The notes beneath the pieces are model-generated. The model searched no databases. It was given only the letters and a program-made list of their open reading frames with translations, and had not been told where the DNA came from. Positions 413-13,216 of a stretch of 63,426 nucleotides of DNA are shown piece after piece. The stretch lies in NCBI GenBank assembly GCA_902776195.1, contig CACYPF010000027.1:1-63426 (forward strand), written 5' to 3'. Made by a program: the position numbers and the translations under genes. Each line of letters starts with the position of its first letter. The first letter of the stretch is position 1. This DNA is from an uncultured Prevotellaceae bacterium (GTDB lineage: Bacteria > Bacteroidota > Bacteroidia > Bacteroidales > Bacteroidaceae).

Positions 413-568
413 TTATCCTAAGATGTCGTCAAGACCCTCGTCGGACTTATACTCCGTGCCAGGATTCTCACCGCCTTCCTCGCCGGGGATTGATCCTGCA
501 AGGAGATAATCCTGAAGATTCAACTCAACGACATCCTCCTTTGGCATCACATAAAATTTCTTTTGCAT
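413..568 (-). CDS. Short acidic peptide (51 aa) downstream of the LRR gene
   Basis: This minus-strand frame encodes 51 residues starting MQKKFYVMPKEDVVELNLQ, followed by LLAG, a glycine/glutamate-rich stretch with GGENPGT, and an acidic tail ending DDILG. No signal peptide or membrane segment is visible. The pattern of a basic start, a V-E-L-N/Q-L-type amphipathic stretch, an LLAG-like step and a Gly/Glu tail matches a loose class of very short, unannotated Bacteroidales ORFs near secreted proteins. That match is from memory. It starts 83 bp after the LRR stop and ends before a terminator, so it is probably co-transcribed. It shares GGExPGT with the 30-aa ORF at 3646-3738. Function unknown. 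Confidence 0.6.
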   Translation of the reverse strand: MQKKFYVMPKEDVVELNLQDYLLAGSIPGEEGGENPGTEYKSDEGLDDILG

Positions 569-650: not shown

Positions 651-3542
651 TTATTTAGCAATGTACTTCTTGCCGTTCATGATATAGAGTTGACCCTTCC
701 GTGGAGCGCTGATGCGGACACCCTGGAGGTTGTACATCACACCGTCCTTGGCAGCAGCCTTGGTCTCAGTCTTCACTCCGTAAATAGCCGTAGCCTCAGA
801 CTCACTCATCCAAATCACACGTGCGGGAGCAGAATAGTCACCGAAGTGGCGCATGAACATGTAGTACCAGTTCAAGCCAATCTTACCACTCTCAGAAGAG
901 ACGAGCAACTTCACTACGTCAACACCCTTGTAGTTGGCAGGATTGCTGATAGAGTAGATGGCATAAGGAGCATAAGCCAGATCGTGGTCAACACCGCCAG
1001 CTCCCCAAACATTGTAGTTGGCTAGGTCGGTACCGTCCCAGAGAATCTGAGTTGTGATGACATCGGGGTTAGCATCAGCGGTAGTATGCTTCTTGAATGC
1101 ACGATCTTCACCATAGCTAGGCAGAGTAGCCCAAACAGAGTTGTGGGAGAGTGCAGCATCCTCGTATGCAATCTCGATATCCTTGTCAGCAAACGAACCG
1201 CTGATGGCCTCAGCCTTGATGATGATAGTCTTCGTATTGGACGCCTCTATCTCGTAGTTACCATTAAACACCTGAAGGGGAACCATGTAGACGAGCGACT
1301 CACCTTTACCCTCAGTACCGCCGTGCTCATTCTCGTCACCGTATGAACCATAGAGAGTCAGTTTAACCCTAGCTTCACCGACTTGCTGATAGCGTGGGAT
1401 AATCATACCGTTTGTAACAGTGTAAGGATTCAGAGGATCCGGACCCTTCTCTACTAGGAACGAACCGAGGTCATAACGTCCCCAGGCAATATTGGTAGAA
1501 CCGTTTTGATATACCAGGAAACTGGTAGAGGTGGTCGGAGTTTCAGCAGCGAACTCAACCAGATAGATATCGAAATCACCGTCAGTCTTCAGACCCTTAA
1601 CAGCGTCTTCAAACTGAGCCTTCAGGTTAGCGTTAGTAACCGTCAGGGCGATGAAACGATCGGTTGAATATGTAGAGCTAGAATTGAAAGCAGCCTTTGC
1701 GAACGGGTTCACATAGTAGTCGGGAACGGTAGCGCAGGTATACTTCAGGGCATACTTAGAAGAACCGTCATCTGTGATTGCGAAAGCACCAGTAGCGACA
1801 GCAGCCTCTGCCAGAAGACCCTCGAAGGTGATGGTCGTGATTTTCGTAGTATTTGCGAAGGCACCGGTAGCGATACCACCCTGGCCGATAGTACCCTTGA
1901 AGGTGACAGCAGTCAGACCTGTGTAAGTTGCTCCCTTGATGATGGCAGCATTCAGACCATTAGAAGCAATAGCACCCGTGAAGGTCAGTTCACGAATGTT
2001 AGTTGCAGGAATGATAGCTCCGGCTTCAAACACACCACCCAGAGACTTCAGTTCGCCGATCTTAATGACAGGCCATACAAAATTACTGATTGAACTACCA
2101 TTGGTGATTACGCTCATGTCGAATACATCGGCGGGGATGATATTGTTAGTTATATTGTTGGCATTCAGGTACTCACCTGTTCCCTGAGCCAGACTCAGTG
2201 TAGCACCGCTAACATCAGCCCATTTGAACGCTCCGGCTTCAAACACTGCGTCATCAGCCTTTATTGTACCGATCTTCACACTTTTCAACTTATCGCCGAA
2301 AGCTGCAGCACCGATTGCCTTGGCTGTAATGATGCTGGCAATCTCCACAGAAGCCAGATTGTTACAGCCTTTGAAAGCATCACCAGCGATAGTGTAGTCA
2401 CCAGACTGGTTGTCAGTGATGTCACCAATCTTCACGCCCTTAATACCTTTGTCTCCGTTATAGCAGGCTTCAAAGGCCTCTGCCATAATCTGACCGGTAG
2501 ATCCGAAGGTCATTCCAGAGAGGTCGAGGATGCCATCCAGCTTGTCGCAGAAAGCGAAAGCTTTCTTGCTGATGATACCAGTCAGAGTACCTGTCAACGT
2601 CAGGCTCTTCAGAGGAGAAGCGTCAATAGCATCTTTACCATAGAGGTTTGACGCAGCATTGCCGGAGAAGCCAGAGTAGTCATAAGTGTAAGGCTCACCA
2701 GTGGTTACAGTCACAGTACCACCACCGAGGTACACGATGCTGCTGACGTTGATACTCAGGTTTTCGATGCTGGAACCCTTCAGGGCAGCAGCGTCAACAT
2801 ACTGAAGTTTGTTGCCGGGGAGAGAAATCTCTGTCAGAGCTTTGCAACCAGAGAATGCCTCGGCGATAACCTCCTGAATCCAACTGTCCTCAAGATTTTT
2901 GATTTTGGCAAGAGATGTCAGATTCCTGAAGGCACCATTGATGTGCTTGAACAGCGGGCTTTTGGGAAGTGTCACCTCTGTGATGTAGGTGTTGTTCTGA
3001 GTAGAAGACTCAACAAACACCTCATTGGGCAGATAAGCCAGTTTCTCACAGGGAGAGAAGTCGAAGTTTGTAATCTTCGTGGTTGCAAAGGCATGTGTGC
3101 CAATGGTCTCCACCTGCGAACCTGTAGCGAAGGTGATACTGGTCATATCAGAGCAACCTTTGAAGCACCCTGCAGGGATGGCTGTCAGAGTAGCAGGAAT
3201 CTCTACTGAAGTTGCGCCAAGATTCTTCAGAGGAAGATTCGTTTTGCTGATAGAGGTCAGAGTAAGTGTGTACTCCTCTGCACCGTAAGTTGTGGTAATA
3301 ATACCATTCTCAGGGAAGTATATCTTACCAGATACAACGGGATTCTTACCGTCGCGAACCTCTGTGAGTTCCACGTTGGCAGTGTACTTGTCAGTACCAG
3401 TTGCAACAGGAGCAGAGGTCAGAGTGTACTTGTAGTACGTATCCGTCACAGTTGATCCAATGTTCAGATCCTGAGCCGATGCATTGCTGAGACCGAAGAA
3501 GCCCAATGCAGCAACAAGCATAAACTTAAAATTCTTTTTCAT
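651..3542 (-). CDS. Secreted BspA-like leucine-rich-repeat protein
   Basis: About 963 residues. I chose the ATG at 3542 because it begins a clear signal peptide (MKKNFKFMLVAALGFFGLSNASAQ region); the frame extends 8 codons further upstream without such a start. From about residue 100 to 650 there are irregular LRR_5 (BspA/Treponema pallidum type) units of the form AF.GC..L..I.L., for example CFKGCSDMTSITF, AFSGCKALTEISL and AFKGCNNLASVEI. The C-terminus carries the Prevotella-type ending MYNLQGVRISAPRKGQLYI followed by MNGKKYIAK, common on exported Bacteroidota proteins and possibly a sorting or anchoring signal. Family members act in adhesion or host/matrix binding; the ligand here is unknown. 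It lies between two peptide ORFs with a shared motif. Confidence 0.8.
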   Translation of the reverse strand: MKKNFKFMLVAALGFFGLSNASAQDLNIGSTVTDTYYKYTLTSAPVATGTDKYTANVELTEVRDGKNPVVSGKIYFPENGIITTTYGAEEYTLTLTSISKTNLPLKNLGATSVEIPATLTAIPAGCFKGCSDMTSITFATGSQVETIGTHAFATTKITNFDFSPCEKLAYLPNEVFVESSTQNNTYITEVTLPKSPLFKHINGAFRNLTSLAKIKNLEDSWIQEVIAEAFSGCKALTEISLPGNKLQYVDAAALKGSSIENLSINVSSIVYLGGGTVTVTTGEPYTYDYSGFSGNAASNLYGKDAIDASPLKSLTLTGTLTGIISKKAFAFCDKLDGILDLSGMTFGSTGQIMAEAFEACYNGDKGIKGVKIGDITDNQSGDYTIAGDAFKGCNNLASVEIASIITAKAIGAAAFGDKLKSVKIGTIKADDAVFEAGAFKWADVSGATLSLAQGTGEYLNANNITNNIIPADVFDMSVITNGSSISNFVWPVIKIGELKSLGGVFEAGAIIPATNIRELTFTGAIASNGLNAAIIKGATYTGLTAVTFKGTIGQGGIATGAFANTTKITTITFEGLLAEAAVATGAFAITDDGSSKYALKYTCATVPDYYVNPFAKAAFNSSSTYSTDRFIALTVTNANLKAQFEDAVKGLKTDGDFDIYLVEFAAETPTTSTSFLVYQNGSTNIAWGRYDLGSFLVEKGPDPLNPYTVTNGMIIPRYQQVGEARVKLTLYGSYGDENEHGGTEGKGESLVYMVPLQVFNGNYEIEASNTKTIIIKAEAISGSFADKDIEIAYEDAALSHNSVWATLPSYGEDRAFKKHTTADANPDVITTQILWDGTDLANYNVWGAGGVDHDLAYAPYAIYSISNPANYKGVDVVKLLVSSESGKIGLNWYYMFMRHFGDYSAPARVIWMSESEATAIYGVKTETKAAAKDGVMYNLQGVRISAPRKGQLYIMNGKKYIAK

Positions 3543-3645
3543 TTGAGTAAAAATTTTGTTATACAAAAAATAATTAAATAAATATTTGTTCTTACGGATT
3601 TCCTATAACTACCGCATAGGCAGTACACAGGCAAGAGGATGATCG

Positions 3646-3738
3646 TCAGGTGCCAGGCACCTCCCCTCCCATGCTGGCCTCAAAGGCGGACTCCAGCGCG
3701 GGAGTTACATTCAGTGAAAATTCTTTTTTGTCCATCAT
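3646..3738 (-). CDS. Leader-like 30-aa peptide upstream of the LRR gene
   Basis: This minus-strand ORF starts at tandem ATG codons (3738 and 3735), encodes about 30 residues beginning MMDKKEFSLNVTPALESAF, and ends GGEVPGT. The start is preceded by an A/T-rich leader (AACATTTAAAACG) typical of Bacteroidota translation starts. The last codons form a 15-bp palindrome (AGGTGCC, one base, GGCACCT). The ORF sits 100 bp upstream of the LRR start on the same strand. The shared GGExPGT ending with the 51-aa peptide downstream argues against chance. It could be a secreted or processed peptide or a translational leader. Confidence 0.5.
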   Translation of the reverse strand: MMDKKEFSLNVTPALESAFEASMGGEVPGT

Positions 3739-3786
3739 CGTTTTAAATGTTTAAGTTTTAAAATATCGAATTCTAATTTGCTTATT

Positions 3787-3826
3787 GCAAGGGGCACACG
3801 AAAGTGCCAACCGACACTCCCCTTGC
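3787..3826 (-). promoter_or_regulatory. Stable hairpin in the leader of the LRR operon
   Basis: GCAAGGGG (3787-3794) pairs with CCCCTTGC (3819-3826), and inside it GGCAC pairs with GTGCC around a TTTCGT loop on the minus strand. No U-run follows, so it is not a terminator. It precedes the 30-aa ORF by about 50 nt. It could affect mRNA stability or translation initiation. Confidence 0.45.
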
Positions 3827-3856
3827 CGGTCATTCATTCGCCATTTTAAAAACAGC

Positions 3857-3864
3857 CAAAATTA
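3857..3864 (-). promoter_or_regulatory. Possible -7 box for the LRR operon
   Basis: The minus strand reads TAATTTTG here, matching TANNTTTG, immediately downstream of the structured RNA's terminator. A TTTC lies about 23 nt upstream as a weak -33 candidate. It would give the peptide/LRR operon its own start at about 3850, independent of the RNA. Confidence 0.4.
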
Positions 3865-3871
3865 TGGATAC

Positions 3872-3974
3872 AAAAAAAGACGTGGGAGAAATGTTTCTTT
3901 CAGTGCTTATCCCCATCTTCAGGCCTTCGCATTGCCCCTATAGAAGGATAAGCAACTTCAAGCCTGCCCACGTC
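3872..3974 (-). terminator. Intrinsic terminator closing the structured RNA
   Basis: The 8-bp helix GACGTGGG/CCCACGTC is followed on the minus strand by TTTTTTT (3872-3878). The helix encloses about 80 nt containing its own 8-bp stem, so the whole 3' domain doubles as the terminator. Confidence 0.6.
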
Positions 3975-4285
3975 GTATCTCTATCTATCTCACGCTACGG
4001 TACAGCAAACCCTATGCTTATATACACAAATACAGTAAACCCATCAATGGAGTTTACAACTTAATCATATACATATAGGGAAGACAGCCGCAGGCAGATA
4101 TGATAATCAACCCACGCGGACGTCTCTGTTGCATTACCGCTGTCTATAGTTTCAAAGTTGCGAAGTTTGAAGATGCAGACAGGTAACCGTTCGAAAACGT
4201 CCTTTCGAGACTGGTCGTACAACTGACCAGAAGCCTCGATCCATCGATGTTATTGTTCGTGCCCGCCCTCTCGTGGACAGGTTTC
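3872..4285 (-). ncRNA. Candidate structured non-coding RNA, ~410 nt, family not recognised
   Basis: The interval has no credible ORF but shows a full Bacteroidota promoter (4291-4321), several strong helices on the minus strand and an intrinsic terminator. Helices: CTGGTC/GACCAG (4211-4216 with 4225-4230); TTACC-TGTCT with AGACA-GC-GGTAA (4177-4186 with 4134-4145) enclosing TTCAAACTT/AACTTTGAA (4151-4171); GTAAAC..CC/GGGTTTAC (4035-4057); GCTTATCC/GGATAAGC (3946-3953 with 3905-3912); and a closing GACGTGGG/CCCACGTC (3967-3974 with 3879-3886) followed by seven U. The length would suit RNase P RNA or tmRNA, but the GAGGAAAGUCC core of the former and the tRNA-like 3' end of the latter are absent. 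It could be a trans-acting RNA or a long attenuated leader of the LRR operon. Confidence 0.6.
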
Positions 4286-4290
4286 GGGTG

Positions 4291-4321
4291 CAAATTTAAA
4301 CAATTATTTTAAACTGACAAA
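4291..4321 (-). promoter_or_regulatory. Bacteroidota promoter of the structured RNA
   Basis: On the minus strand TTTG (4318-4321) and TAAATTTG (4291-4298) are separated by 19 nt, matching the -33 TTTG / -7 TANNTTTG consensus and spacing. Predicted start is about 4284-4286. The flanks are A/T-rich. This is the best two-box promoter match I found in the window. Confidence 0.65.
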
Positions 4322-4398
4322 TAATTTTAAAGAAAAATCACACTTAAAGGCAAAAAAACTTGATATTCCCCTACTTTGTCGGAAGAATAGCCCCGAAG

Positions 4399-4434
4399 AA
4401 AAAAGAAGCCCCGGACGGTCTGTCCAGGGGCTTC
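4399..4434 (-). terminator. Intrinsic terminator of fba
   Basis: On the minus strand GAAGCCCC pairs with GGGGCTTC (4427-4434 with 4405-4412), followed by six U (4399-4404). It begins 23 bp beyond the restored fba stop at 4457. Confidence 0.85.
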
Positions 4435-4456
4435 TTATATAATATAATAAGGTATA

Positions 4457-5400
4457 TTATCCTAACTTACCGTCAGAACCAAGTACCTCCTTGATCTTGT
4501 GGATGTACATCTTCTTCATGTTCTCACGAGCGGGCTTCAGATACTGACGAGGATCGAAGTGGAGTCGATGTTGATCTTGCAGACAGCACTCTTTGATGCC
4601 TTGCGGAGCTGCTCCTCAGGAATACCTACAGCGTCGGGCAGGTTACCACCGTACTTGTTGATCGTGTCAACCTCGTCCTGTGGAACGGAAGAAGAGCCGT
4701 GGAGCACGATGGGGAATCCAGGAAGCTTCTTCTCGATCTCAGCCAGCACGTCGAAAGCGAGTGGAGGAGGAACGAGCTTACCGGTCTTCGGGTCACGTGT
4801 GCACTGCTCGGGCTTGAACTTATAAGCACCATGAGAAGTACCGATGGAGATAGCAAGAGAGTCGCAACCTGTGCGGGTAGCGAAGTCAATCACCTCCTCA
4901 GGCTTGGTGTAGTGGCTTACCTCAGAGGCAACCTCATCCTCAACACCAGCGAGGACACCGAGCTCACACTCTACGGTAACATCATACTTGTGTGCATACT
5001 CTACAACCTGACGAGAGATCTTGATGTTCTCCTCGTAAGGCAGTGAAGAACCGTCGTACATCACTGAAGAGAAGCCCATGTCGATACAGTCCTTGCAGAG
5101 CTCGAAGCTGTCACCGTGGTCGAGGTGAAGCACGATCTCTGGTTTCTCACAACCCAGCTCCTTAGCATAAGCCACAGCACCCTCAGCCATATAGCGGAGG
5201 ATAGTAGCGTTAGCGTAGTTACGTGCGCCCTTTGAAACCTGCATGATAACAGGTGACTTTGTCTCTACGGCAGCCTGTACGATAGCCTGCATCTGCTCCA
5301 TTGTGTTGAAGTTGAAAGCAGGAATAGCATAACCACCAGCTACTGCCTTCTTGAACATCTCGCGGGTATTAACGAGACCCAAATCCTTGTAATTTACCAT
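4457..5400 (-). pseudogene. fba: Class II fructose-1,6-bisphosphate aldolase, frameshifted by an internal deletion
   Basis: This encodes the zinc-dependent aldolase that interconverts fructose-1,6-bisphosphate with glyceraldehyde-3-phosphate and DHAP. Visible landmarks are HLDHGD (metal/catalytic), ELGVLAGVEDEV, SIGTSHGAYK, VLHGSSSVP and KINIDS. The first frame runs from 5400 to a stop at 4537 (287 aa) and ends in a nonsense tail after KINIDS. The true C-terminus (FDPRQYLKPARENMKKMY, then IHKIKEVLGSDGKLG) continues in another frame to the stop at 4457. Between them about 20 residues (the usual RLAMTA-type helix) are missing. The length, 944 nt, would become about 1005 nt (334 aa, the usual family size) with some 61 nt restored. 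The junction is near 4558-4562. Promoter and terminator look normal, so a real glycolytic gene damaged by assembly or a recent lesion is likely. Confidence 0.85.
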
Positions 5401-10789: not shown

Positions 10790-13216
10790 TTACATCTCCT
10801 TGAAAATAATCTTACTGATCTTCACTTTCGTGCCAGCAGGAGAGCCGCCGAAGTCGAAGAACATACGAATGGCTGACGCATCCTTTTCTTCTTTCAGGGT
10901 AACACCCGTTCTGGTGAAGACGAACGGCTCGCCGGCAGACACATCCACACGCTCCTCAAAGAAGAAGTTCGTGTCACCGGCATCCGTCAGTTTGAAGGTC
11001 ACCTGCGGACAATCCTGCTCTACCTCCATCTCCAACTGGAAAGCATACTGCTTGCCGGCACTGGCTGTCAGTTTCGTGTCGATATGGAACTGACCCTGCC
11101 ACTGGCTGCCGCCCAGTCCCTGGGGGAGCGTAATCTCATAGGCATTACCGCTATGTGTAGCCTCTGCAAATGCTATACCCTGCCAGCCGTCATCTGCGAA
11201 ATAATAGCCAAAGGCATCGAACTTACTGCCATCATCCACTGCTTTCCACAGGTTATCCGAGTCGTCGTAGTTCAGGCTAACGCCAGCAACACCATTCACA
11301 TTATGTTTCTGGATGATGATCTCGCTCAAACTCAGCTCAAAGCCTACGGGAGCACCACCTAAGTCGATAAACAGCTTAGCCGTCTGGAACCCGGTATCCT
11401 CACCGTTCTTCTGAGCTTTCACACCGACGAACTCCACATATTGTTCACCAGCCACGAGTGACAGACTACCATTATATACTAAGGTGTTTTCATCGTCATT
11501 CTCATCGCATACCTTGAAGGTATAGCGTCCCAAGTCAGCACTTGCCTCCATCTTGACACGGATGTCATAGAGCTGACCTGCCTCGATATTAACAGAAGCA
11601 TTGTGGATAGAGCACTGTCCCTGCCACTCAGAGCCACCATTCTCCGTTGCTACTATGGTATATACCCCATTGTTGTAAGAGAACTGAGGATCACCGATCT
11701 GGCTCCAACCGCCATCAGCCCACCAGAACTGCATCGTTCCAATCTTATTGAAGTCCGCACCGAGGTTATCTGCCGAGTTGACATCCACCCAAGTTACTGC
11801 GCCTGGGGTGTCAGGACCATCTGTCGGCAGGATAGTACCATCATCGTCGGCATGGTTCTTCAGCACGATGTTACGCACATTGACCGTAGTATTCTCCTGA
11901 CAGCCACCGAAGTCGAGTACGAGCATCACCTTGCTCATATCAATACCCGGCATATCACTCTTCCAGAAGATATAGTCCTCACCCGCTTTCAGGTCGATGC
12001 GGTCAGTGAAGTAGAACACACCATCGTCACCATCCAGTACCAGTTTCACGGTAGCACCATTCAGGTCCTTGTCACTATTTAAGATAGCGGAGAAGTCGTA
12101 GTTGTTGGCGGCGGAGGTCGTCAGGTCGGTATGGAACTTCACCTGTGCCTGCCACTGGTCAGTGGTTGCCTGCGGCAATACGATGGTATAGTCGTTGCCT
12201 GCGTCGGTAAACTCAGGATCGGCAATCTGTGTCCATCCCGGTGCATACCAGAACTCCATGGTCGGGGTGATACCTTTCCACATATTATACTGACTATTGG
12301 CATCGAAGCCCTCAAACTTCTTCTCACCCTCCTTGCTGGTAAGGATGAAACGCCAGGAGATACCTCCAGCCTCATTCTCATAGACAAGTACCATCTTCGA
12401 GGCTGTCAGTGTCTCGATGCGGAAACGGGGGTTCTCATACTGTGAGTCAGCAGAGATATAGGGGAAGAAGGTGTTAGGAGCCAACACAAGGTAGTCGACA
12501 TCCATAACCTGTCCCTCGGCATCTGTCCATGGTCCACGCTTGAATTCGAAAGTACTGGTCTGTACCTGGTTGGGCATATCGAAGTCGGCGGTAGCACCAC
12601 CATTGTCCCACTTCGTACAACCGATATTAATATAGGTCAGACCATCAGCACCCGGGTCATAGGTGAATGAGCCACCCTTGTTACTCTCGACGGTGAAGCT
12701 GATGCGGTCGTCATACACTCCGAAGTCTTTCTTCTCATCGGCAGCGGCATTCCACCAGCCCGTGCCGTCACTTCCATAAGGACCACAGGCAAGATGGGCA
12801 GGCTCAGCATTGTCAATACGCCACTCCTTGCCGGCAATGCGGTTGAGCAGGCTGGTGTAGTTCATCTTCGTCTCATTGAAGGTGAACGTCTTCTTGAGAG
12901 TACCTTGAGAAATACCATTACGGTTACCCAGTTTCATCTCTACGGTATAGGTACCGCGCTCCGCATTCGACCAACCGGCATTGTTGAGTGTTGAATAGGT
13001 TGCCCCGTTAAAGATCCAGATAGGATAGGTTCCAGCCGTCTCAGGATAGCTCACCCTGATCTGGTTCACCTCTTGGTCTACTTCCAAGGTGAAGTCCTGA
13101 CCGGCAACGGTCGGTATCTTCGTCTGGTCGGCACCGTCAAAGCTGTCAGGGGAGCAGGCTGTCAAGGCAAGTCCTGTGAGCAGTGCGCAGCCAATATATT
13201 GAAATATCTTTTTCAT
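10790..13216 (-). CDS. Surface glycan-binding lipoprotein with three CBM-like repeats
   Basis: 808 residues with lipoprotein signal LALTAC (Cys21). The N-terminal third contains immunoglobulin-like strands and a W-rich region (GKEWRIDN, GTGWWN). The rest consists of three homologous beta-sandwich modules of about 150 residues, each with a W-x-G/A-Q core: DQWQAQVKFHTDL, SEWQGQCSIHNAS and SQWQGQFHIDTKL. Each ends with LDFGG or LDLGG or FDFGG and a hydrophobic strand. This is typical of carbohydrate-binding modules of the CBM4/9 clan. The position directly after susD marks it as the SGBP (SusE/F-position protein) of the PUL. It probably captures beta-glucan for GH16 and SusCD. Exact CBM family is not determinable by eye. 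Confidence 0.75.
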   Translation of the reverse strand: MKKIFQYIGCALLTGLALTACSPDSFDGADQTKIPTVAGQDFTLEVDQEVNQIRVSYPETAGTYPIWIFNGATYSTLNNAGWSNAERGTYTVEMKLGNRNGISQGTLKKTFTFNETKMNYTSLLNRIAGKEWRIDNAEPAHLACGPYGSDGTGWWNAAADEKKDFGVYDDRISFTVESNKGGSFTYDPGADGLTYINIGCTKWDNGGATADFDMPNQVQTSTFEFKRGPWTDAEGQVMDVDYLVLAPNTFFPYISADSQYENPRFRIETLTASKMVLVYENEAGGISWRFILTSKEGEKKFEGFDANSQYNMWKGITPTMEFWYAPGWTQIADPEFTDAGNDYTIVLPQATTDQWQAQVKFHTDLTTSAANNYDFSAILNSDKDLNGATVKLVLDGDDGVFYFTDRIDLKAGEDYIFWKSDMPGIDMSKVMLVLDFGGCQENTTVNVRNIVLKNHADDDGTILPTDGPDTPGAVTWVDVNSADNLGADFNKIGTMQFWWADGGWSQIGDPQFSYNNGVYTIVATENGGSEWQGQCSIHNASVNIEAGQLYDIRVKMEASADLGRYTFKVCDENDDENTLVYNGSLSLVAGEQYVEFVGVKAQKNGEDTGFQTAKLFIDLGGAPVGFELSLSEIIIQKHNVNGVAGVSLNYDDSDNLWKAVDDGSKFDAFGYYFADDGWQGIAFAEATHSGNAYEITLPQGLGGSQWQGQFHIDTKLTASAGKQYAFQLEMEVEQDCPQVTFKLTDAGDTNFFFEERVDVSAGEPFVFTRTGVTLKEEKDASAIRMFFDFGGSPAGTKVKISKIIFKEM

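Follow-up and report, generated by a model that had tools for sequence, protein, structure and literature searches.

What does the candidate RNA gene on the minus strand within positions 3872-4321 of the window (the whole 63,426-nt stretch of DNA from an uncultured Prevotellaceae bacterium) do? The ~410-nt gene has a promoter and a terminator-like 3' end, and an earlier note had suggested that its product is an undescribed structured RNA acting either in trans or as a regulated leader for the operon that starts behind it. Based on comparative sequence analysis and predicted folding energies, we consider it probable, at roughly two chances in three, that the RNA is a transcription-attenuation leader whose ON state is a rod formed by two hairpins, A and B, and that it is accompanied in one lineage by address-matched trans RNAs.

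Ends, surroundings and known relatives of the RNA

The two-box Bacteroidota promoter with 19-nt spacing was found as claimed (4321-4291, minus strand, as are all features below), with TTTG at 4321-4318 (-33 box) and TAAATTTG at 4298-4291 (-7 box). When the stretch 150-470 nt ahead of the 3' domain was examined across the family, only 80 of 143 copies showed the strict promoter pattern, and none did with the same stretches reversed. The class A leader RNA (3872..4284), with relatives across Bacteroidales, has a 5' end estimated from the position of the -7 box and a 3' end at the U-tract. The closing stem was likewise recovered, as 8 bp between GACGTGGG (3974-3967; 100% of cells paired in 33 copies, mostly invariant) and CCCACGTC (3886-3879), followed by seven U at 3878-3872. 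The conserved RNA extends past this terminator, to motif Y at ~3810. A 5'-terminal hairpin (CCTGTCC..GGGCGGG, 4262..4281) appeared in the MFE fold and was kept in most rows of a 20-copy alignment.

The MFE of the RNA was -146.6 kcal/mol, compared with -116.6 ± 6.0 kcal/mol in dinucleotide shuffles (n = 100; z -4.98, 0/100 as good); the opposite strand of the locus gave a z of -3.54. The putative ORFs of at least 40 aa overlapping the RNA are 86, 53, 52 and 49 aa long, and the base pairs of the RNA covary strongly.

The RNA lies between an upstream gene resembling class II fructose-bisphosphate aldolase, recognized by eye, and a peptide/LRR/peptide unit. This unit comprises a possible 30-aa peptide ORF immediately behind the leader (MMDKKEFSLNVTPALESAFEASMGGEVPGT, 3646..3738), where similar short peptides occur in some other copies, a 963-aa BspA-type leucine-rich-repeat protein (651..3542; Pfam LRR_5, E 2.7e-25) with a signal-peptide-like N-terminus by eye, and, as the third gene, a 51-aa peptide (MQKKFYVMPKEDVVELNLQDYLLAGS..., 413..568) with no Pfam match. 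The aldolase-like ORF (4537-5400) stops early and seems interrupted in the assembly, because what appears to be its usual C-terminal part runs on in a different frame towards 4450. By eye, short peptides of the form KK..(Y/F)..P..(E/D)VVEL.....LLAGS.. were seen to flank large surface-protein genes, before or behind them, in the window (413-568 and 3646-3738) and at L042, L051, L053, L056, L057 and L061; the one such peptide scanned had no Pfam match.

A covariance search of the whole window with Rfam 15 at gathering thresholds returned no match; at E <= 5, region 3540-4480 gave four matches, all far under the family thresholds. Nine other loci yielded only 6S RNA and tRNA elsewhere in the locus, and ARAGORN found no tRNA or tmRNA in the window RNA. 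Known Rfam families were rejected on this basis for both the window RNA and the class B RNAs described below, as was tRNA/tmRNA identity by ARAGORN. Literature searches on Bacteroidales structured RNAs turned up no description of the leader family, and the available part of PMC7160235 held nothing related to it. The available part of PMC2864571 lists c4 antisense RNA as RF01695 and gives Rfam numbers to Bacteroidales-1 and Bacteroides-1, neither of which matched the window RNA, and none to Bacteroides-2 and GUCCY-hairpin. The family is thus new against Rfam 15, with Bacteroides-2 and GUCCY-hairpin known from that part of PMC2864571 by name alone, and the description of the RNA as undescribed stands within these searches. 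Bacteroidales-1/6S RNA (RF01693) is also a Bacteroidales non-coding RNA, but it is a separate gene, ~2.4 kb from the leader copy in L145.

Antisense hairpins and the possible partners of the terminator strand

Hairpin A, the address hairpin (4134..4186), has covarying local stems and three address strands, X1 (ATCTTC, 4174-4169), X3 (CTTCGC, 4165-4160) and X2 (CTATAG, 4149-4144). Hairpin B (3905..3953) carries their counterparts X2' (CTATAG, 3943-3938), X3' (GCGAAG, 3930-3925) and X1' (GAAGAT, 3920-3915). An inter-domain variable region (3976..4104) lies between them, and the domain spacing ranged from 20 to 163 nt in 89 copies.

The nine pairs with the strongest mutual information in 38 copies all fell in three long-range helices. 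In alignment A8, made from 33 of 38 copies, the rod (X1, X3, X2 and the antiterminator helix) was paired in 96.8% of 851 cells, compared with 78.7 ± 0.8% after shuffling (0/500 as high) and 35.5-62.3% when the strands were slid, so the compensatory changes sought by the earlier note are present in the X helices. The local hairpin stems, the terminator stem and a further local stem, P_out, were paired in 96.5% of 1556 cells (85.6 ± 0.5% shuffled). X1 and X2 are hypervariable, nearly free in sequence, many of their neighbours are almost invariant, and X3 occurs in a few versions; within this RNA class, a hypervariable helix thus displays very strong natural covariation. Of 100 loci searched, 89 had both domains, and in these the cognate duplexes of X1, X2 and X3 averaged -8.5, -10.2 and -11.0 kcal/mol, compared with -2.1, -3.0 and -8.4 kcal/mol for non-cognate ones. 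The A:B duplex was calculated at -50.4 kcal/mol, compared with -13.2 (A) and -21.3 (B) kcal/mol for the hairpins alone. Because the X helices covary and fit their own partners, this comparison shows that hairpins A (5') and B (3') are antisense copies of each other, predicted to pair through X1, X3 and X2. The helices listed in the earlier note were therefore only partly right: the A:B duplex, a long-range pairing, is the main structure, and both strands of the closing stem have rival partners. A CAGGCTT:AGGCCTG helix was first read as a pseudoknot of the 3' domain, but by eye its 5' strand varies (AACT, TATC, TTAC) without matching change, and the helix was dropped.

Selection against cross-talk among the leaders of one genome was tested and was unsupported. 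Cross pairs averaged -12.7 kcal/mol within a genome and -12.4 kcal/mol between genomes, and 7.4% of the same-genome pairs fell below -20 kcal/mol compared with 3.8% of the different-genome pairs. Leaders sharing a genome were not less cross-compatible, and hence no selection for leader orthogonality was seen.

The comparison also shows three possible partners for the terminator 3' strand, which with U7 spans 3872..3886: its own 5' strand, an upstream antiterminator strand AAAGGACG (4198..4205), which would pair with the CGUCUUUU part of the strand and the U-tract, and motif Y before the ATG. Motif Y lies in a hairpin (3810..3830) whose GGGGAG (3822-3817) can pair with Y', CTCCC at 3888-3884. 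Terminator and antiterminator are predicted to be mutually exclusive, as one 3' strand fits both. P_out (4202-4197 with 4123-4118), which is itself supported, shares bases with AAAGGACG through its 5' strand and competes for it.

The antiterminator helix was paired in 99.6% of cells in the 33 copies and in 94.2% in 86 copies (the 89 minus the degenerate L046 and near-identical copies), a modest but consistent excess over the 91.8 ± 0.4% of shuffled sets. Pair 7-355 of alignment A8 was A-U in 25 and G-C in eight of the 33 copies, with no exception, and A-U in 50, G-C in 25, A-C in eight and G-U in three of the 86. Antiterminator pairs changing on both sides numbered 1/8 in the smaller set and 4/8 in the larger one. 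The terminator stem hardly varies (99.6% paired compared with 98.4% shuffled, 86 copies). Since there is little variation in either, terminator and antiterminator rest on conservation plus few changes.

Individual folds were calculated for the first 60 of the 89 rows, of which 52 were kept. At least 5 bp of the antiterminator helix appeared in 50 of these 52 MFE folds and at least 6 bp of the terminator stem in none, and forcing the terminator cost 13 kcal/mol on average, in calculations that ignore pseudoknots and over-rate the rod. Because pseudoknots are ignored, a fold combining the terminator with kissing hairpins is under-rated. For Y:Y', tested in 131 of 152 copies, cognate pairs averaged -8.70 kcal/mol compared with -7.29 ± 0.13 kcal/mol for permuted ones, the minimum of 2000 permutations being -7.79 kcal/mol.

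These features suggest how the leader may work. In the OFF state, A and B would remain separate hairpins, the terminator would form and an RNA of ~410 nt would be released. In the ON state, A and B would zip into one rod, and AAAGGACG would take the CGUCUUUU half of the terminator strand; in a later step, Y would take the CUCCC half, and the downstream gene would be transcribed. Y and the antiterminator need different halves of the terminator strand, and together they would thus occupy it after read-through.

A multi-copy family ahead of varied genes

Two covariance models, R1 for the 3' domain and R2 for the 5' domain, were built from same-genus copies, so that distant members were possibly missed; searches over more than 40 genomes were run with stricter filters. 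The genome of the window (G000; 93.55% complete, 42 contigs) contains about 15 related copies. Searching at the DNA level yielded 14 rows (E <= 0.01), counted as 12 copies plus one 53-nt piece, whereas R1 gave eight matches at E <= 1e-4 and R2 13 at E <= 0.01. From the two models, six strong leaders, three divergent leaders (C5:37742, C6:86934 and C9:22997) and six copies whose 3' domain is not intact were distinguished. The last six (L043-L048), termed class B, kept the promoter and hairpin A but have no intact hairpin B, which in L046 is degraded rather than absent.

As the earlier note had expected, the RNA is conserved in relatives. The 3' domain (R1, E <= 1e-4) was detected in 137 of 200 same-genus genomes and in 34 of 295 sampled across the order, counting the own genome both times, and across the phylum in 1 of 198, which was the own genome (0/197 others). 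A motif scan of named genomes found at least 117 stretches; the matches listed include Bacteroides bouchesdurhonensis (L070) and Phocaeicola massiliensis (DSM 17679, L145), both cultured, and Parabacteroides sp. An277, as well as Xylanibacter, Muribaculaceae and Paraprevotella. L124 (Acidobacteriaceae), one of 80 motif-scan matches listed, was judged to be chance. Outside Bacteroidota, one true copy (L094) was found on a contig of 5.3 kb in a MAG labelled Lachnospiraceae, which could reflect misbinning or a genuine outlier. In several genomes the assembly breaks in or beside copies (L062, L220, L221, L229 and others), so copy numbers are probably under-counted; the four copies named lie at contig ends and were left out of class assignment. 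The RNA class is large, widespread and multi-copy in gut bacteria and is absent from Rfam 15.

The phage and plasmid searches made for the leader gave no matches. In IMG/VR, only three stretches carried the 3'-domain motif (L187, L188 and L189); since their contigs are called viral, the leader may travel on some prophage-like elements.

Genes behind the leaders were examined in 144 copies, those followed by 450 nt or more of sequence, with ORFs called from ATG only. An ATG ORF within 330 nt was present in 138 copies for at least 40 aa and in 113 for at least 80 aa. In 81 of the 144, the start of an ORF of at least 80 aa lay 44-90 nt behind the U-tract, compared with 1/144 on the opposite strand and 48/432 at random positions, which supports the leader role that had been suggested for the peptide/LRR operon. 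From the 141 downstream proteins, 100 were scanned, and their matches (E <= 0.001) fell into 57 Pfam and 87 NCBIfam families, the commonest being TIGR04117 (radical SAM target peptides; 10) and LRR_5 (9), with DUF2971 in three. Peptides with L(Q/K)SRR(E/D)FFK(R/K)AAK near the start were seen directly behind leaders (L083, L088, L089, L097, L105, L106, L108, L109, L134 and L148), and in some cases an ORF with, by eye, a radical-SAM-like Cys motif came next. HMP2_1881, described in the available part of PMC8040213 as a 108-bp Bacteroidetes candidate structured RNA near radical SAM genes that was expressed in 13/13 occurrences, may be a fragment of the leader family, given the 10 TIGR04117 matches; the two were compared by description alone. 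From their sequences, many gut Bacteroidales look as if they start varied genes, often those of surface proteins, with a large folded RNA resembling an on/off switch.

The cis part of this model would also suit a ligand riboswitch, whose conserved, non-hypervariable core recognizes a metabolite or protein, with the X helices as a neutral scaffold and class B RNAs as decaying leaders. The many invariant positions outside the hypervariable helices, the wide range of the leader without class B, and L046, which resembles a leader with a decaying 3' domain, all agree with such a switch. We nevertheless regard it as unlikely, although worth serious attention, because no common metabolic theme was visible among the 100 downstream proteins in Pfam and NCBIfam, and because decay leaves unexplained both the tRNA-like element common to class B and the presence of 91-100% identical addresses beside 69-75% identical flanks (see below).

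We consider it improbable that the ~410-nt RNA acts alone behind a constitutive terminator, with a downstream gene that has its own, unrecognized promoter or is a mere neighbour. The RNA does have its own promoter and terminator, and class B RNAs with a related 5' part occur outside the leader position. However, a stand-alone RNA accounts poorly for the preferred distance to the start codon before very different genes (81/144 against 1/144), for a motif Y past the U-tract that fits the terminator strand, and for the scarcity of -7 boxes between U-tract and ATG, found in only 10 of 126 copies.

Class B RNAs and address matching

The class B genes are located on other contigs than their proposed target or ~10 kb off, not on its opposite strand, and in line with the trans role that the earlier note had allowed for, the class B copies look like stand-alone trans RNAs outside the leader position. 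Behind each class B RNA lies a tRNA-like element that has motifs of a D-arm (GGCTCAGACGGTGAGC) and a T-arm (GAGGTTCGACTCCTC) but lacks an anticodon arm; this element and the class B promoters were read by eye. It occurs 3' of the class B RNA at L043-L048 and L226, and once behind a surface-protein operon (L052, ~10990-11060). A terminator-like hairpin follows it in L043, L044 and L046, the loci read far enough. ARAGORN called 0 genes in six loci, and no Rfam tRNA was found in the class B loci. By analogy with mascRNA, the element might be an RNase P processing mark.

In five class B RNAs the address hairpin was nearly the same as that of one leader of the same genome: L043 and the window leader (97%), L044 and L039 (97%), L046 and L040 (100%), L047 and L041 (91%), and L048 and L042 (97%). 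The next best leader for each class B address reached 72-78%. Outside the address hairpin, the same five pairs were 69-75% identical, and the partner was not the most similar leader there in four of them and tied in the fifth (L046). None of the G000 leaders compared was a partner for L045 (best 79%), whose address is nearly that of an incomplete copy, L220, in G142, and one of the six strong leaders, L038, had no class B match. In a second species (G142), a seventh class B RNA, L226, matched leader L222, 10 kb away, with identical X1 and X3 cores and X2 in part, and formed with it the best trans duplex of 64 leaders. When duplexes between class B hairpin A and the hairpin B of these 64 leaders were ranked, the own-genome partner came first for 5/7 class B RNAs, second for 1/7 and was lacking for 1/7; within G000 it was the best for four and took second place for L043 (after a G034 leader), and there was none for L045.

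The address matches with diverged flanks are best explained, as far as sequence comparison goes, by selection on recognition between class B RNAs and leaders. The main non-functional rival is gene conversion or duplication between repeats, in which five short tracts were copied; it would give the address match without function and would deny only the trans part of the model. The repeats are being homogenised, since the G000 leaders are mostly 93-98% identical outside the address (79-84% for L040), and this would favour conversion. Yet it requires five separate tracts of ~33 nt, each shared with a different partner, between elements that lie on different contigs and otherwise group into distinct clades (support 0.978 for the G000 leaders, 0.849 for class B; unrooted tree), as well as a similar event in the second genome, and we find it distinctly improbable. 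A DNA-level element, such as a recombination or mobile cassette site, would suit the multiple copies, varied cargo genes and contig breaks near copies, but the promoter, the U-tract, the G-U tolerant covarying pairs, the lack of phage and plasmid matches and the mere three IMG/VR stretches make it a very remote alternative.

Under the attenuation-leader model, each class B RNA would bind hairpin B of its own leader and shift the switch: as class B has no hairpin B, its hairpin A would be the part acting on the leader's B. We lean towards a decoy that would block the cis rod and favour termination, because L226 lost the antiterminator motif and kept P_out, apparently by a matching change (by eye), in this one case. 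Such trans action is not a general mechanism, since class B, as judged by the tRNA-like mark, occurred in only 2 of 299 same-genus genomes. The mark itself was found in three of the 299 (six in G000, two in G142 and one in G205); one of the G142 marks follows the operon of a leader, with no RNA, and the G205 mark is at a contig end. Class B is thus narrow in range, whereas the cis switch is order-wide. Elsewhere, the RNAs without a 3'-domain match (L247, L248 and L265) appeared truncated or degenerate by eye, with no partner seen; L268 had been flagged among them only because its two matches overlap.

Several known systems share parts of this design. In pT181-type attenuators, pairing of an antisense RNA loop sets termination or read-through and thereby controls plasmid copy number, and engineered orthogonal versions reportedly exist as designed sets. 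The choice between terminator and read-through by RNA-RNA loop pairing and the orthogonal pairs are common to both; those systems are plasmid-borne or designed, whereas the present family is chromosomal and order-wide, its leader carries both the hairpin and the antisense copy, and its matched pairs are natural and lie in one genome. CopA/CopT and RNAI/RNAII are kissing antisense RNAs with bulged complementary hairpins that may extend to a full duplex, as A and B may; in those systems the opposite strand of the target encodes the antisense RNA, whereas the trans RNA proposed here stems from a paralogous gene at another site and looks like hairpin A of the leader itself. In c4 antisense RNA of phage P1, the antisense segment is transcribed together with its target, as in the leader, but the window RNA has no Rfam match and has a terminator switch and a hypervariable three-part address. 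T-box leaders of amino-acid genes also decide between terminator and antiterminator by base pairing with a trans RNA, which is a tRNA; the partner proposed here is not a tRNA, the leader has no Rfam match and the genes are not amino-acid genes.

More tentatively, and at somewhat less than even odds, these RNAs may form a natural multiplexed RNA-to-RNA network built on address helices, in which paralogous trans RNAs matured at the tRNA-like 3' element would each govern just the surface-protein operon whose address matches their own. If this is true, one cell would hold several private RNA channels that use a shared chassis with different keys. The RNA class as a whole would give Bacteroidales a further layer of switching for surface proteins, accessory genes and radical-SAM peptides, and its matched class A and class B pairs would provide a natural equivalent of synthetic biology's orthogonal riboregulators.
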